A stretch of 49,448 bases of DNA from Treponemataceae bacterium (GTDB lineage: Bacteria > Spirochaetota > Spirochaetia > Treponematales > Treponemataceae), in the NCBI GenBank assembly GCA_024685655.1, contig JAIKVO010000227.1, positions 1-49,448 of the forward strand, read 5' to 3'. Of the stretch, positions 6,715-14,787 are shown piece by piece (the stretch's first letter is position 1; each line of letters begins with the position of its first letter). The notes under the pieces were generated by a model, which was given only the letters and a program-made list of their open reading frames with translations, was not told the origin of the DNA and did no database searches. A program made the position numbers and the translations under genes.

Positions 6715-6891
6715 GCTCCTACTTTTTTGATACTTTTAGTATAAAGCATATCACCTAAAAAGCAAGTGGCTTTGGTAATGCCGCAAATTTTTAGTATCGG
6801 TGGTTATACAAATCAGGGCTTCTTTTATCTGTGATGAGTGGCAAAAACATTTCGAAGAGATTTCTTTTTACTGCTAGTTTTACCTGCAAAC

Positions 6892-6951
6892 AAAAAAAAA
6901 TGTCCAAACTCTAACAGAGCTAAAAAATACTCTCAGAGGCTGGACATTTTT
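6892..6951 (-). terminator. Rho-independent terminator downstream of the 6989-7894 gene
   Basis: Minus strand AAAAATGTCCA...TGGACATTTTTTTTT with internal CTCTGAGAG/CTCTGTTAGAG. Confidence 0.75.
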
Positions 6952-6988
6952 GTAACTATAGGTGATGTATTTTTCTTACCAAAAATAC

Positions 6989-7894
6989 TTATTCATTTAT
7001 TACAATAACAGATATACCACCTATATCGCTTCTTCGCACATCCTTTATTGTACCATTTACTTCATAAACAGAACCAGATGTACCACCTGTCATTATTCCG
7101 TCAATAGTCTCTGCCGGTGTCAATGAGATAACATCATCATTGTTCGTATAGACAAATACACTTGAATATGTCGGAATCTTTATACCAATATTATCTTTTT
7201 TGTATCCACTCAAAGTTTTTCCATTAACCGAATAGGAAAATTCTTCATGTTTGGTATCTTCATCAACAGATGTTACATTTAGTTGTAAGCATATTCTTCT
7301 TCCTATAATTTCATAATCACTAATGAATTTCTTGAAAACTAATGCAGAATTGTTTGCTATACAATTCAATATAATAGGTGATGTTACCGCTTTATTAAGA
7401 TTCTGTGTATACTCATCATCTGACCAATTTGCAATTCTTAATAGAATTTCTGCCTTCATTTGCTTTGCATATTCAACAGCGACTTTTTCCGAAGTTTCAT
7501 ATGAAGATCCTGACTTAACTTTTTTCAAATCCTTATCACAAGCATATGATGACATATCCGTCAAATCAATCTTAAAATCATCACCTTGTTTTGTTACCGT
7601 ACATGTGAAATCATATCTCGTCAAACCTACTATATTTCCTACAACGAAACTTGCAGTAAACACGTATTTCTCATTCGTAACATCAATCGACACAAAGTAT
7701 GGATCATATATAGTCCAAGAATCTGATTTCTCTGTCGCAAAATTGTAAACACCAGATATCAGTTTTCTATCTCCCAACGAAAGGGCAGACACATCTACTG
7801 AATCAGCAGACGATGAGGCTCCTCCTGTCGATAAGCACGAAGTAAAAACAGACAGTAAGCATACTATCAATCCAACAGTTAAAAATCTTTTCAT
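6989..7894 (-). CDS. Hypothetical lipoprotein
   Basis: MKRFLTVGLIVCLLSVFTSCLSTGG lipobox; 301 aa. Confidence 0.7.
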   Translation of the reverse strand: MKRFLTVGLIVCLLSVFTSCLSTGGASSSADSVDVSALSLGDRKLISGVYNFATEKSDSWTIYDPYFVSIDVTNEKYVFTASFVVGNIVGLTRYDFTCTVTKQGDDFKIDLTDMSSYACDKDLKKVKSGSSYETSEKVAVEYAKQMKAEILLRIANWSDDEYTQNLNKAVTSPIILNCIANNSALVFKKFISDYEIIGRRICLQLNVTSVDEDTKHEEFSYSVNGKTLSGYKKDNIGIKIPTYSSVFVYTNNDDVISLTPAETIDGIMTGGTSGSVYEVNGTIKDVRRSDIGGISVIVINE

Positions 7895-8045
7895 ACAAGT
7901 CCTCCAAAATTATTTACTAGAAATAAACTTTTCAAGAAATAGTATAAAACAGATATTTATTTTTGTATAGATTGTATATACTTTTTTATGCTTTATATAT
8001 TTCACATCTATGTAATCTTAATATAATTTCCTTGAAAATAATATA

Positions 8046-8366
8046 ATGCAGGATTTTGAGATACGGATGCGTGTTGCAGAAAACATCCGCACGCTTCGCA
8101 AACAAAAAAAATATACTCAATTTCAATTGGCAGAAAAATCAAATCTGTCTGAAGCTACTATAAAAAGCATTGAATTAGCACATTCTTATCCAGAAGAAAA
8201 AACTCTCTCGCAAATTACTGAGGCTTTAGAAATTGATGTTGTGAAACTTTTTATGCCAGTTGGTGAGTCATTCAGAAAAAACAAAGAAATCGCAGCTCGA
8301 CTAAAATCTGCGATTGCAAGCGATGTACGGGACTATGTGAATGAAGTTTTGCGGGAGTTTGACTAG
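8046..8366 (+). CDS. XRE-family helix-turn-helix regulator
   Basis: RVAENIRTLRKQKKYTQFQLAEKSNLSEATIKSIELAHSYPEEKTLSQITEALEIDVVKLF. Confidence 0.9.
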   Translation: MQDFEIRMRVAENIRTLRKQKKYTQFQLAEKSNLSEATIKSIELAHSYPEEKTLSQITEALEIDVVKLFMPVGESFRKNKEIAARLKSAIASDVRDYVNEVLREFD

Positions 8367-8769
8367 ACTAAAAATACACACGGCTCGTTATAAAACGGAA
8401 GAAGTTCATCGTGCGTAATCAAATACATGTTTTCGGCTTTTGCCTGGCTTATAAGCATTCTGTCAAAGGGATCTTTATGCGAACGGGGTGCATCAGGTGA
8501 GTAAGAAAGTGTTTTCAAAAAAAGAGCATGTTCAGGCAGTATAGGAAGACACTTCATTCCTGCTAATTCACAAAGCTCAAATAATTTATCACCAGAGATA
8601 GGGAACTCTTCCTTCGATTTTAGATATTTAATCTCAGTTTCCCAAATATTAATAGAACTAAAAAAAATCTCGTTGTCAGGATTTTGAATAATATCCAAAT
8701 CCTGATGTGTCAGCTTTTTTTGTTTGTATGAATCCAAATTATTAAATGAGTATCTAATAAGACTCTCAT
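8363..8769 (-). pseudogene. VapC-like PIN-domain toxin, frameshifted at an A7 tract (complement of T7 at 8715-8721)
   Basis: ATG at 8769 (ATGA overlap with the upstream antitoxin stop) encodes MRVLLDTHLIIWIHTNKKS*; the +1-nt frame continues KLTHQDLDIIQNPDNEIFFSSINIWE...HKDPFDRMLISQAK...LITHDELL. The tracked start at 8812 is artefactual. Confidence 0.8.
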
Positions 8770-8999
8770 AAATAATCCTCAAATTCTTCCGCAACAACAT
8801 CATCACCAGCATGGATATCTTCTGGATATTTAAACATACCTTCTGCCAAACCTATTTTAATTTCGTTTGTCTTAGGTTTTTCTTTTTGAGCATTAATCAT
8901 CATCAATTTGTACTGCAAAAGCTGAACATATTTTGCAACTTCTTCCAAATATTCTTCGGGAAGTGTTTTCAACTGCTGCACTAATCGCTCATATGACAT
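8766..8999 (-). CDS. Antitoxin-like protein (DUF2281-like) partnered with the PIN gene
   Basis: MSYERLVQQLKTLPEEYLEEVAKYVQLLQYKL...; stop overlaps ATG of the PIN gene. Confidence 0.65.
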   Translation of the reverse strand: MSYERLVQQLKTLPEEYLEEVAKYVQLLQYKLMMINAQKEKPKTNEIKIGLAEGMFKYPEDIHAGDDVVAEEFEDYL

Positions 9000-9072
9000 G
9001 ATAAACCTCCATGCATTTTAAAGATAACACAGAATTGGAAATTTTACTATAAAAAGGTCTTATCAATTCCGC

Positions 9073-9507
9073 TCACTTATACTCAACGAGGTCGAATGTC
9101 TGAAAGATTTCAAAATCGGCTGGATTCGCCGTCCAGAGCTCTGTTACACCGGCTTCTGCGAAAGAAGCTGCCATGTGGGTGTCCTGAATGCGTTTACGGC
9201 CGAGTTTGTACATGTTCGTCCAAAGAAACGCGCGCTTAAGTGAATTATCATCTGGGTAAATAACTTTCACCCTCTCCTGATCCACCCAAAACCAAGTGCG
9301 CTCAATTGCCTGCTCCATTGTAAGCGGTGAAACAAACCGGCGTGAATCCGTTATAACATGCTGGAATTCAAGAAAAGTCTGATTAAAAATGACAAGCACT
9401 GAATGCTTTTCTTTAAGCCATTTCTCGAACAGCTTTACAGCACCATTGTGGCGCGGCGAATCCAGAATCTCCAAGTCTATAAGAAAAGTTGTGTCGATTC
9501 CTACCAA
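9073..9507 (-). CDS. PIN-domain toxin (VapC-like)
   Basis: LVGIDTTFLIDLE...IQDTHMAASFAEAGVTELWTANPADFEIF; likely TTG start at 9507 overlapping the antitoxin stop; the tracked upstream extension overlaps the antitoxin gene. Confidence 0.75.
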   Translation of the reverse strand: MVGIDTTFLIDLEILDSPRHNGAVKLFEKWLKEKHSVLVIFNQTFLEFQHVITDSRRFVSPLTMEQAIERTWFWVDQERVKVIYPDDNSLKRAFLWTNMYKLGRKRIQDTHMAASFAEAGVTELWTANPADFEIFQTFDLVEYK

Positions 9508-9767
9508 GATGCGCTCCCAAGCATTTCGTCCTGATAGTCTTTTGAAAGCCAGTCTTGAGCACCCGGTTTTATTCCGCCGAGCGAAACAGGCTGCCATTCT
9601 TCAAGAGTTTTTTTTGGCTTCGAATGGTTTTGAATATACTCATCCATTGCCTCTCGGACCAATTCTGCCGCTTTACGATTCTGGGCTACAGCCATCTGCT
9701 GAAACATGAGATACTTTAATTCCTGTAAATAAACCGTAACCGGTTTTTTTCTTAAATGTACTGCCAT
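9501..9767 (-). CDS. Ribbon-helix-helix-like antitoxin
   Basis: MAVHLRKKPVTVYLQELKYLMFQQMAVAQNRKAAELVREAMDEYI; overlaps the PIN gene start. Confidence 0.65.
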   Translation of the reverse strand: MAVHLRKKPVTVYLQELKYLMFQQMAVAQNRKAAELVREAMDEYIQNHSKPKKTLEEWQPVSLGGIKPGAQDWLSKDYQDEMLGSASW

Positions 9768-9852
9768 AGTTATAACATACATATATTATATATGTATGTC
9801 AAGATTTTTTTCTTTTCCTTCTCATGTAGCAACGATATAAAAATCATTTCTA

Positions 9853-10605
9853 TTATTTATTCGAAAATCTGGACAAAAACGACTGTGTTCTTTCAACCTG
9901 AGGATTGTTTATCACGTCTTCAGGGGAACCTTCTTCCACGATTACACCACCGTCCATAAAGATGACATGGCTGGAAATATCCCGCGCGAAGGCCATTTCA
10001 TGAGTGACTACAACCATTGTCATTTTTTCAGCAGCGAGCTCTTTTATTACAGCAAGAATCTCGCCTGTAAGCTCCGGGTCGAGCGCGGATGTCGGCTCAT
10101 CAAAAAGAAGGACTTCGGGCTTCAACGCAAGCGCACGCGCAATGGAAACGCGCTGCTGCTGCCCTCCGCTAAGCTCACACGGATATGCTCCCGCTTTAGA
10201 TTCAAGTCCCATCCGATGCAGCAGCTCCATCGCGACATTTTCCGCTTCGTGCCTGCTTTTTTTCAGCACACGTATCTGCGGGTCGGCAACATTTTTTAGA
10301 ACTGAATAATGCGGAAAAAGGTTGAAATTCTGAAATACAAGTCCGCTTTTAAGGATTATTGCGTGGCGTTTTGCCTTGTCTGAATAAATACCATTCTCAA
10401 CGAGCGTTTCTCCGCAAATCTTGATTGTTCCATCCGTAACGTCTTCAAGCTGTGAAATGCAACGCAAAATAGTCGATTTTCCTGAACCGCTCGGCCCGAT
10501 TATTCCAAGAACCTCGCCTTTTTGCACTGAAAACGAAATTCCCTTTATAACATCAAGATTTCCGAATGACTTTTTCAAATTCTCAACTGTGATAATTTCA
10601 GACAT
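9853..10605 (-). CDS. Polar amino-acid ABC transporter ATP-binding protein
   Basis: Walker [10 protein letters not shown], signature [15 protein letters not shown], Walker [16 protein letters not shown]. Confidence 0.95.
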
Positions 10606-10701
10606 ATTTTTTCCTAACGCAAGTATTCAAATATCCGCAGCGATTTACAACCAAGCTTATAAGAAGTCTCGCTGCGGAATTACGCTCGCCACAAGCAAAA
10701 T

Positions 10702-11382
10702 TCAGTTATAATAGGCAAGTTTCTTTTCTAATCTTTGGAAAACAAAAGAAACAATCCAGTTCATTACGAAATAGAATATACCTGCTAAAAACAATGGAAT
10801 AAAACTGAACAAAGCTCCCTGCCGTTCCTTTGCGACCATAAGAAGCTCGGAAACACCAATTACAGAGACAAGCGCTGTGTCCTTTACAAGAGTAATTACT
10901 TCGTTTCCCATAGCAGGTACAATTCGTTTTACAACCTGAGGCAGAACAATCCTGAAGAATGTCTGCCCGGATGTATATCCTAAGACCTTTGAAGCCTCAT
11001 ACTGACCTTTTGGAATAGACTCTATCCCACCTCTGTAAATCTCTGCGAAATATGCCGCATAATTTATTGAAAGAGCGATAATTGCAGCTGCAAATCGGTT
11101 CCAGCTGAAGTTCACGGCATAGCCAAGATTCACAAGCCACCTTATAAAAAGCCCCGGTCCGAAATAAACGACAAGAAGCTGGAGCATAAGAGGCGTTCCC
11201 CTGATTATCAAAAGGAAAACATTCACCAACCCTGATAAAAGTTTATTCTTTGACATGCGTCCCATTGCAATTGGAAGCGCGAGAGGAATTGAAAAAATCA
11301 GAGTAAGAAAGAACACTTCAAGCGACGTAAGAGAACCGCTCAGCATAGCTTGAAGTGTCTTCAAATATCTTTCAAAGCCCAT
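10702..11382 (-). CDS. Polar amino-acid ABC transporter permease
   Basis: HisM/GlnP-type LLIIRGTPLMLQLLVVYFG, YFAEIYRGGIESIPKGQYEASKVLG. Confidence 0.95.
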   Translation of the reverse strand: MGFERYLKTLQAMLSGSLTSLEVFFLTLIFSIPLALPIAMGRMSKNKLLSGLVNVFLLIIRGTPLMLQLLVVYFGPGLFIRWLVNLGYAVNFSWNRFAAAIIALSINYAAYFAEIYRGGIESIPKGQYEASKVLGYTSGQTFFRIVLPQVVKRIVPAMGNEVITLVKDTALVSVIGVSELLMVAKERQGALFSFIPLFLAGIFYFVMNWIVSFVFQRLEKKLAYYN

Positions 11383-11389
11383 AAAAGGA

Positions 11390-12196
11390 TTATTTTCCTA
11401 TTACGCTTACATCTTTACCGAACCATGCCTTGCTGATATTGGCGATAGTTCCGTCTTTCTGCATTTCAAGAAGGATTTCCTGAACTTTGTCACGCAGCTC
11501 CGGCTCGTTCTTTCTGAAACCGATTCCGTAAGCCTCATTCGCGAGTGCCTCTGAAACTACATAAAACGGCTCACCAGTCTGTGCGATTGAATAGTTTGCC
11601 ACAACACTGTCCATCACAACGCCATCTACACCACCAATTTTAAGATCGTTCAATGCAGTGATATTATCTTTAAATGGAACGATTTCCTTAAGTCCAGCCT
11701 TGAACGCTTTATTAGCTTCTTCATCAACAGCATCCTGGGCGCTTGAACCACTCTGAATACCAAGCTTTTTGCCGTTCATATCTGCAAGTGTCTTGATTCC
11801 GCTGTCATTTCTTACGACAAGAACCTGTTCATTGTTCAAGTATGCGAACGTGAAAGAAAGTGCATTCTTCCTTTCTTCTGTGATTGTAAAACCGTTCCAG
11901 ATACAGTCGATTTTTCCAGTCTCAAGCTCAAATTCCTTTGCATCCCAGTCGATTGGTTGTGCCTTAAACTCAACACCAAGTCTTTTTGCGACTTCTTTCG
12001 CAAGGTCGATATCATAACCTACAATTTCATTGTTATCATTCCTATAACCAAGCGGTGGGAATGAATCATCCAAACCGAGGACAAAAGTTCCTCTTCCTTC
12101 CAATGCGCTGACGGCATCTTTCTTTTCTGTTTTTTTACAGCTTACAGTACAGAACAAAGTCACAACTGCTATCAGAACAAACATAATTCTTTTCAT
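11390..12196 (-). CDS. Amino-acid ABC transporter substrate-binding lipoprotein
   Basis: SBP_bac_3 motifs GTFVLGLDDSFPPLGYRNDNNEIVGYDIDLAKEVAKRLG; lipobox FCTVSC. Confidence 0.93.
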   Translation of the reverse strand: MKRIMFVLIAVVTLFCTVSCKKTEKKDAVSALEGRGTFVLGLDDSFPPLGYRNDNNEIVGYDIDLAKEVAKRLGVEFKAQPIDWDAKEFELETGKIDCIWNGFTITEERKNALSFTFAYLNNEQVLVVRNDSGIKTLADMNGKKLGIQSGSSAQDAVDEEANKAFKAGLKEIVPFKDNITALNDLKIGGVDGVVMDSVVANYSIAQTGEPFYVVSEALANEAYGIGFRKNEPELRDKVQEILLEMQKDGTIANISKAWFGKDVSVIGK

Positions 12197-12324
12197 TTTT
12201 TCTTATCTCCTCAAAAAAGAAAAATTACATGCTTTTGATTTTAAGAGGAAAGAAAAAAATAGGCAAGAAGTTTTGATTGTCATCTGATGTTGACAACAGT
12301 ATCTTTATGATTTAGTGTTTTTCC

Positions 12325-13902
12325 ATGAGAGTTTTGAAATTAGTAACCGTAGCAGCAATCTTATTTGTTGCCTCTGTAAATTTATTCGCCCAAAGCGCAA
12401 TCGTATCATCACAGCATACCTCTGTTACAATTCCATCATCGCAACGCTCAGTTTCCTTGACATCATCTGATATTCCAACCCAGTTTCCTTCAATTGAGCC
12501 GCTTTTTACAGCAGAAGAAGAGCTAGGCTACTCTCCCGATAAAATTCTTACCGCTGATGAGATTCTCACACTTTCTCTTCTGTTCTCGGAATGCTCTCTT
12601 TCATCAGTTACAGCTCGGCGTGCGTTCCAGAAATTCGAGCGTATAAAAAAAGAAGTATCCTCGCCGGAATACATGCAGATGAGCGAAGAAGAACGTGGAA
12701 AAGCAATACTCATGCTTTTGTATAAAAACACGCTTTTTGAATACAATGAAGACCAATCGAAAATAAATACAGTTTTCGAGACTGGCTACTATAACTGCGT
12801 ATCATCGGCTCTTATCTACATGGCTGCGGCAAAAGCCGCCAGGCTTGAGGTAAGAGGACAAAAAACACCCGAACACGCATTCTGCTCCATATACATCAAA
12901 AACAAAACGACAGGCAAAAAACACCGCATTGACGTAGAGACGACAAATCCATATGGATTCAATTCTGGAACCACTGGCACGATTGACTACGGTGATAACA
13001 TGAAATTGTACTACAGCGTTCCTGCATCAGATTATGAGAACCGCCAGGAAGTGAGCGACAAAGTATTTGTCGGGTTAGTCGCAAACAATCTTTGTGCTGA
13101 TTACCAGAAAAGCGGAGACTATTATTCTGCCATTCCAAGTATGGGCGCTCTGTATGACCTTGTAAAAAATGAGAAATCTTCTGCGCAACATCAAATCCAG
13201 GAAGATTTTTTCGGATTTCCATGCTCCTACATACATGATGTATCCATCGACTTAGATTCTTATCCAGCATCAAAATATGAAGAAATTGTAAGCTGGTTCG
13301 CAAGTTTTATAAAACGATGGGGCAAAAATTCTGCTTTGCAGGATAATATGGATGCCGCATGCAACAATCTTATTTACCTTTGTTTCCAAGAAAAAAACTA
13401 TGACCTAGCGAATACATCTTTCTCTAAACTGAAACCATACATCTCGAAAAAGCAACTTGCGGAATCGCAAGAAATTATTACGGAAATACTAATTACCTCA
13501 AAAACGGATGGAGCTGAGCCATATCAAAAAACAGAAATTATATATGACTTGCTAAACTCAGCTGATTTATCTTCCGCGCAAAGGAAACGCTTATCAACAG
13601 AACTGGAAAACACTTGGCTAATAATTCTGACAGAACGCATGAATAACTGCGAATTCCGCGAAGGCTACCAGGATTCGCTTACGGCACAAACTCAGTTACC
13701 TGAAAGCGAAACGTTCAAACAAACTACTCAAATTTTCTACACCGACTGTATTATCGATATTCATAATGCTTTTGTAACACAAGCAAACAGCGGCAATTTC
13801 AAAGAAGCAATAAAAATCCTGGAACAGGGGCTTTCCGAGTTCCCAGATGACCAGACACTTCTTAATGATGTGGCGATTTTAAAATCTGTAGGGCTTCTTT
13901 AA
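12325..13902 (+). CDS. Exported protein with transglutaminase-like Cys/His/Asp motifs and TPR-like C-terminus
   Basis: Signal peptide ending VNLFAQ; GYYNCVSSALIYMAAAKAARL, PEHAFCSIYI, HRIDVETTNPYGF. Confidence 0.6.
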   Translation: MRVLKLVTVAAILFVASVNLFAQSAIVSSQHTSVTIPSSQRSVSLTSSDIPTQFPSIEPLFTAEEELGYSPDKILTADEILTLSLLFSECSLSSVTARRAFQKFERIKKEVSSPEYMQMSEEERGKAILMLLYKNTLFEYNEDQSKINTVFETGYYNCVSSALIYMAAAKAARLEVRGQKTPEHAFCSIYIKNKTTGKKHRIDVETTNPYGFNSGTTGTIDYGDNMKLYYSVPASDYENRQEVSDKVFVGLVANNLCADYQKSGDYYSAIPSMGALYDLVKNEKSSAQHQIQEDFFGFPCSYIHDVSIDLDSYPASKYEEIVSWFASFIKRWGKNSALQDNMDAACNNLIYLCFQEKNYDLANTSFSKLKPYISKKQLAESQEIITEILITSKTDGAEPYQKTEIIYDLLNSADLSSAQRKRLSTELENTWLIILTERMNNCEFREGYQDSLTAQTQLPESETFKQTTQIFYTDCIIDIHNAFVTQANSGNFKEAIKILEQGLSEFPDDQTLLNDVAILKSVGLL

Positions 13903-14118
13903 GATTTAAGACCGCATTTACATCAAATGAAAATTTTACACAGAAAAAACTCCCCCCCCATACTTTCTCATAAACCGTGCTTTTCAAAAATTAAAAAAAA
14001 CTTTTTCTGGCGTGAATAAAACTTTCATGTTATCCTGAAAACAGTTGAGCTTTTGCTGTCGTGTTACAAAAACGTTTTATGGAAACAGGCAGCAAGATTG
14101 TAAAAAAGAGGAGGATAT

Positions 14119-14787
14119 ATGTTTAAATTCTGGGGAGACGGCTCCGATTTTGCAAAAGGGCTTGTCGATAACATCAGGGTAAGAAGTACCGAAAACTTCA
14201 ACTGGACGTTTATTTTTATACTTGCAGTTGTTTTTTATGTGTACTGGACTGAAATCCACAAAAAGAATTACGAGGCTGTCTTCGCTGGACTCGCGCTTTA
14301 TGGCGTACACTGGTTGTATGAAATTGTGAACGCGATTATCGGGCATATTTCCGGATACCCGCTATGGTCAGTAAGCAACGATTCCACGACTTTCATTCTG
14401 TTGATCGGTGTCTGCTGGGAACTTTCCATGATGTTCTCGCTGGCAGGAATAATATCATTCAGGATGATGCCCCAAGACCGCACCAAAAGATATTTCACCA
14501 AGAACGGAAAGAAAGGTATAAGCTGCAAACTCGTTGTCGCTATTGAGATGGCACTTCTTTTTGCTTTGTTCGAATCGTTCCTCGCTGGAACATCAAATCA
14601 TTCTTTTATCTGGGTTTATAAATGGTGGGGCGTTATTCCTGTATTCATAACGACATACGTTCCATTCTTTTTGGCGAGCAACTATGTTCCAGACATGGCT
14701 CCTGCAAAACGCAAACGCTTTCTTATCATCCTTTGGGGAAGCGTCGCGGTATTGCTTGTCGTACTGATTCCTCTAGGAATTATCTGA
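14119..14787 (+). CDS. Multi-pass membrane protein of unknown function
   Basis: 222 aa with several hydrophobic helices; AGGAGG upstream. Confidence 0.7.
   Translation: MFKFWGDGSDFAKGLVDNIRVRSTENFNWTFIFILAVVFYVYWTEIHKKNYEAVFAGLALYGVHWLYEIVNAIIGHISGYPLWSVSNDSTTFILLIGVCWELSMMFSLAGIISFRMMPQDRTKRYFTKNGKKGISCKLVVAIEMALLFALFESFLAGTSNHSFIWVYKWWGVIPVFITTYVPFFLASNYVPDMAPAKRKRFLIILWGSVAVLLVVLIPLGII

Follow-up and report, generated by a model that had tools for sequence, protein, structure and literature searches.

Why does the vapC toxin gene of this Treponema-family genome fall into two reading frames at a run of seven adenines? The split could reflect loss of the toxin, an error in the assembly, or some form of regulated or reversible slippage. 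The source genome is a draft of 3.16 Mb in 293 contigs, with a completeness of 88%; the window, meaning the whole 49,448-nt stretch that was analyzed, is its contig 8.

A VapC toxin split between two frames

The locus is made up of the following features.

8766..8999, minus strand: vapB antitoxin gene of the DUF2281 family, 77 codons, intact (Pfam, NCBIfam, and homologues beside 17 of 17 relatives)
8769-8363, minus strand: vapC proper, split (sequence and alignment with relatives)
8710..8769, minus strand: 5′ part of vapC, 19 codons and a stop, encoding the PIN domain's first strand and first Asp (sequence; aligns with the N-terminus of intact relatives)
8715..8721, minus strand: A7 run, the site of frame loss (sequence; relatives have a single frame here and no A7)
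8363..8716, minus strand: remainder of vapC, 117 codons and a stop in the other frame, with the PIN domain and its remaining acidic residues (Pfam and alignment)

The split-frame VapC is genuinely present in the sequence and is no chance resemblance, because four lines of evidence agree. First, the vapC ATG (8769-8767) overlaps the vapB stop codon as TTATGA (an ATGA overlap), and the frame that it opens ends after AAC AAA AAA AGC TGA, just as the original prediction described. The 0-frame product is MRVLLDTHLIIWIHTNKKS, 19 codons closed by the TGA at 8712-8710, and the A run inside it is exactly 7 bases long (8721-8715). Second, the 117-codon remainder, which is open in the frame entered by a −1 slip, matches the PIN domain PF01850 with 33.2 bits against a cut-off of 23.6; the further claim that the rest of the domain keeps its acidic residues in this other frame is borne out by the alignment as well. 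Third, the match of this remainder covers profile positions 24-112 of 120. In the genome-wide comparison, ten PIN genes score above the cut-off, nine of which match from profile position 1-2, leaving the window vapC as the only one to match from 22. Fourth, both pieces can be aligned over their whole length with intact relatives, with the junction falling between N-K-K and K-L, and full-length relatives cross this junction in one frame. The extent first given for the feature, 8363-8812, has to be revised, since it combines the downstream frame with a stretch of vapB. The only start listed for the downstream frame is the ATG at 8812; it lies inside vapB, is no sensible toxin start, and does not have the first strand in frame.

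What kind of system is this? VapB matches DUF2281 (PF10047) with 36.7 bits against a cut-off of 26.5, and NCBIfam TA_VapB at 4e-7, which is under the curated cut-off. A PIN toxin gene and an upstream antitoxin gene joined to it by an ATGA overlap are what defines a type II VapBC pair of the DUF2281-PIN kind; the toxin of such a pair has one open frame, and here the 0 frame stops after 19 codons. An intact vapB ORF beside a disrupted toxin, found likewise in six relatives, is what defines an orphan antitoxin or degraded toxin-antitoxin (TA) locus. The window locus belongs to the DUF2281-VapC type II TA family, as a member with a broken toxin gene and a whole antitoxin gene.

Two sets of known systems are instructive. 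The Synechocystis gene pairs ssr8013/slr8014 and ssl2138/sll1092 are VapBC-like type II TA pairs of the DUF2281-PIN kind, and in E. coli slr8014 acts as a toxin, which its own antitoxin neutralizes (PMC4963859). They share with the window pair the antitoxin family, the PIN toxin, and the antitoxin-first order; unlike them, the window pair is assigned from its sequence, and the reading frame of its toxin breaks off after 19 codons. Surveys in Klebsiella (PMC7192599) and E. coli (PMC10790755) have described orphan antitoxins and degraded TA loci, for which they propose anti-addiction or simple decay as roles. As in those cases, an antitoxin gene is found in the window without a working toxin in its original context, but the window toxin remnant is near full length and in place, and the condition recurs in one small clade. 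TA decay and orphan antitoxins are thus already known, and what is unusual here is how often one clade has lost its toxin.

The surroundings of the pair offer several separate observations. The vapC gene converges on an HTH regulator gene (8046-8366), and the two stop codons overlap. On its other side, the broken pair adjoins ABC transporter genes and, directly upstream, a second vapBC pair (9073-9782) of a different kind that is unbroken and apparently intact. The toxin of this second pair matches Mtu_PIN_fam (TIGR00028) under the cut-off, and the nearest match of the pair is in a congener, G006, at 74% DNA identity. Another congener, G003, matches 6806-8366 at 92%, and similarity returns only at about 12288. 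The block 8367-12287, which holds both vapBC pairs and the ABC transporter genes, is missing from the otherwise collinear G003, with the junction at the HTH gene's stop codon, and is therefore either a gain in the window genome or a loss in G003. Elsewhere, the longest run of G or C anywhere in the window is a C8 run at 13952-13959, between an ORF ending at 13902 and an ORF starting at 14119; it is possibly a slip-prone promoter spacer.

Repeated breaks in related Treponema toxins

In the named collection of genomes, the closest relatives of the window vapC are from rumen Treponema MAGs, and the nearest VapCs, about 50%-60% identical, are from genomes of the same bacterial family. With the window counted, there are 18 close Treponema homologues. 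Eleven are whole (G136, G260, G086, G181, G043, G045, G046, G151, G131, G183, and G126). The other seven are broken, six by frameshift and one by truncation, at positions that differ. Those other than the window vapC are listed here.

G154 vapC: frameshift in a T run, which is one longer than that of G136
G085 vapC: frameshift within the C run that immediately precedes HKDPFDR; the first 96 residues are identical to those of the intact G136
G205 vapC: frame broken by codon 3
G051 vapC: frame broken inside DPFDR, in a one-contig assembly
G266 vapC: two breaks
G206 vapC: truncated after codon 96 and fused to unrelated sequence

Several of the lesions lie in homopolymers (A7, T8, T7, and a C run) and some others are not homopolymer slips. 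Beside each of the seven broken toxins, vapB is open in a single frame. The seven breaks are best read as separate events, because all of the lesions differ, the broken genes are scattered across the tree, and in one case a broken gene has a near-identical intact sister. The six broken genes listed above are all in other Treponema-family genomes.

Is such breakage simply common among VapCs of these genomes? As a control, a sister-clade VapC was used as the query against the same 274 genomes at E ≤ 1e-30. About 62 VapCs outside the clade were recovered, all full length except one whose first part is out of frame (G260:C64:5814). Broken genes score lower, and hence rank lower, so further partial genes were also allowed into the control; the broken count is then about 1-3 in 62-64, and 3 of 64 if two further partial genes are admitted. 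The difference between the clade and its sister gives a Fisher p of 7e-5 to 7e-4, or 2e-3 without the truncated G206, values that are indicative only, as the clade boundary was drawn post hoc and the count includes the window itself. The out-of-frame sister-clade gene (L198, G260:C64:5300-6600) is on a small contig that also bears a full-length close relative at 1752-2138.

The repeated breakage of related Treponema copies at other places is better explained by the toxin having been lost repeatedly than by a frameshift by design. We consider it probable that a frameshift recently inactivated the toxin gene of this DUF2281-type vapBC pair, while the antitoxin was retained. Recent inactivation was one of the alternatives first put forward, and the differing breaks in relatives, the sister-clade control, and the codon-position differences described below make it the best supported of them. 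A small slip in the A run early in vapC would have cost the gene its frame. The resulting 19-residue product, which retains no more of the PIN fold than its first strand and first Asp, presumably could not act as a nuclease. VapB is still encoded whole and would be the only component at work, if anything is, which would make it an orphan antitoxin. A lone VapB may still neutralize a related VapC, or its gene may simply be heading for loss.

How recent might the break be? Compared with the intact G136 vapC, the window gene differs at 0.31/0.17/0.58 of codon positions 1/2/3, and the two genes of an intact pair about as far apart, those of G086 and G136, differ at 0.31/0.16/0.54. For the window gene itself dN/dS is saturated, while the frameshifted G154 compared with G136 gives a dN of 0.03 and a dS of 0.32. 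From the match between the window and the intact pair, and from G154, it appears that protein-level constraint on the downstream frames lasted until lately. The window VapC also differs at 6 of 42 columns that are invariant in ten intact relatives (0-4 when intact ones are left out in turn), and it has the longest branch in the tree. These departures could mean a distant lineage, or a period of relaxed constraint following an older break.

Errors and slippage as alternatives

A less likely explanation, although the strongest of the alternatives, is that the tract length was miscalled or strains were mixed in the draft consensus, and that the cell carries an unbroken gene. Indel errors are commonest in homopolymers, and the tract length is the one called in this draft of 293 contigs. 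A same-species or near-identical allele for comparing tract length was sought, and none was found in the genomes searched: other genomes of the genus had no VapC of the clade, with only 41%-44% matches in G002 and G005, and viral contigs had only relatives at 29%-31%. Against an artefact, the other nine PIN genes of the assembly are whole, and 25 A/T runs of at least 7 lie in long ORFs of the window that stay open (these ORFs were chosen for their openness). Moreover, breaks cluster in one toxin clade and not in its sister clade over the same genomes, and some of the relatives' breaks are not homopolymer slips. The homopolymer sequencing error raised at the outset is possible, but the whole PIN genes and the sister-clade contrast do not favor it.

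It is more doubtful still that the clade keeps vapBC as an antitoxin with a slip-prone, mostly silent toxin. If this were true, cells would stay immune and meet active VapC only rarely or at a low dose. Two modes can be envisaged, loss and regain of frame at homopolymers or a leak by slippage at A7, and each can also be considered as an explanation in its own right.

Phase variation, in which reversible homopolymer slips switch the toxin off and on in a population, is very improbable. Lesions in homopolymers and near-identical whole and broken alleles (G136 and G085) do fit such a switch, as do the three A/T runs of 7-8 bases in the one short vapC gene of the window (8363-8769), compared with 25 such runs over about 41.9 kb of the window's long ORFs. 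For that gene alone, the three A/T runs of at least 7 compare with 1.4 expected, with a p of about 0.05 in one of several tests. On the other hand, the lesion sites differ between genes, some lesions are not homopolymer slips, G206 is truncated, and G266 is broken twice. Furthermore, intact clade members have 9 A/T runs of at least 6 against 8.8 ± 1.9 expected from synonymous shuffles, and 2 of at least 7 against 2.8. A dedicated contingency tract is thus unlikely, given run counts at the shuffle expectation in intact relatives and lesion sites that are not shared, although any long run can revert. A search of the open-licence literature by title and abstract for a phase-variable or slippage-controlled vapC found no paper.

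Equally hard to credit is programmed or regulated slippage, in which the ribosome (−1) or RNA polymerase (one extra A) slips at A7 to yield a fraction of full-length VapC. The direction of the shift suits a −1 slip, and the 0-frame stop follows immediately. A 9-bp hairpin begins 9 nt downstream, and its z is −2.4 to −2.8 when compared with dinucleotide shuffles. A_AAA could serve as a minimal −1 motif (PMC5009743), and slippage on A/T runs does take place in bacteria (PMC5574713, PMC3812077). This arrangement is reminiscent of dnaX, a programmed −1 frameshift gene with A_AAA_AAG and a 3′ hairpin (PMC5009743): the window has an A run, a near 0-frame stop, and a downstream hairpin at about the usual spacing. 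In contrast to dnaX, however, the 0-frame AAC AAA AAA AGC does not place the tandem heptamer A_AAA_AAG in phase, leaving only a single-codon A_AAA slip. The hairpin stands out less against synonymous shuffles than against dinucleotide shuffles, since 17% of the synonymous ones fold as stably downstream, and the z of a different run in the window, an A8, is stronger. Conservation argues in the same direction. The programmed slippage that the original prediction entertained finds no support in the relatives, since neither a break nor an A7 occurs at this junction in any of the 17 (G136 has CAGAAAAAGCTT there) and the intact ones read straight through; the breaks of the other broken relatives lie elsewhere and mostly need the opposite direction of shift. 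Accidental slippage on A7 is expected at some low level (PMC5574713, PMC3812077), and a trace of full-length toxin by this route is possible, with no sign of selection for such a leak.

Implications for antitoxin retention

What are the implications of repeated toxin loss? A search for a solved structure matching a clade member by sequence gave none at E ≤ 0.01. Selection against a costly toxin, or protection by the antitoxin alone, may be why this clade is hit so frequently. Split toxins of this kind would escape annotation pipelines or be mislabelled by them. Seven differing breaks are found in separate species within one small clade, and sister VapC clades are whole over the same genomes. 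The contrast between the clade and its sister therefore offers a natural test of the idea that costly toxins are removed by selection and their antitoxins are kept as protection.
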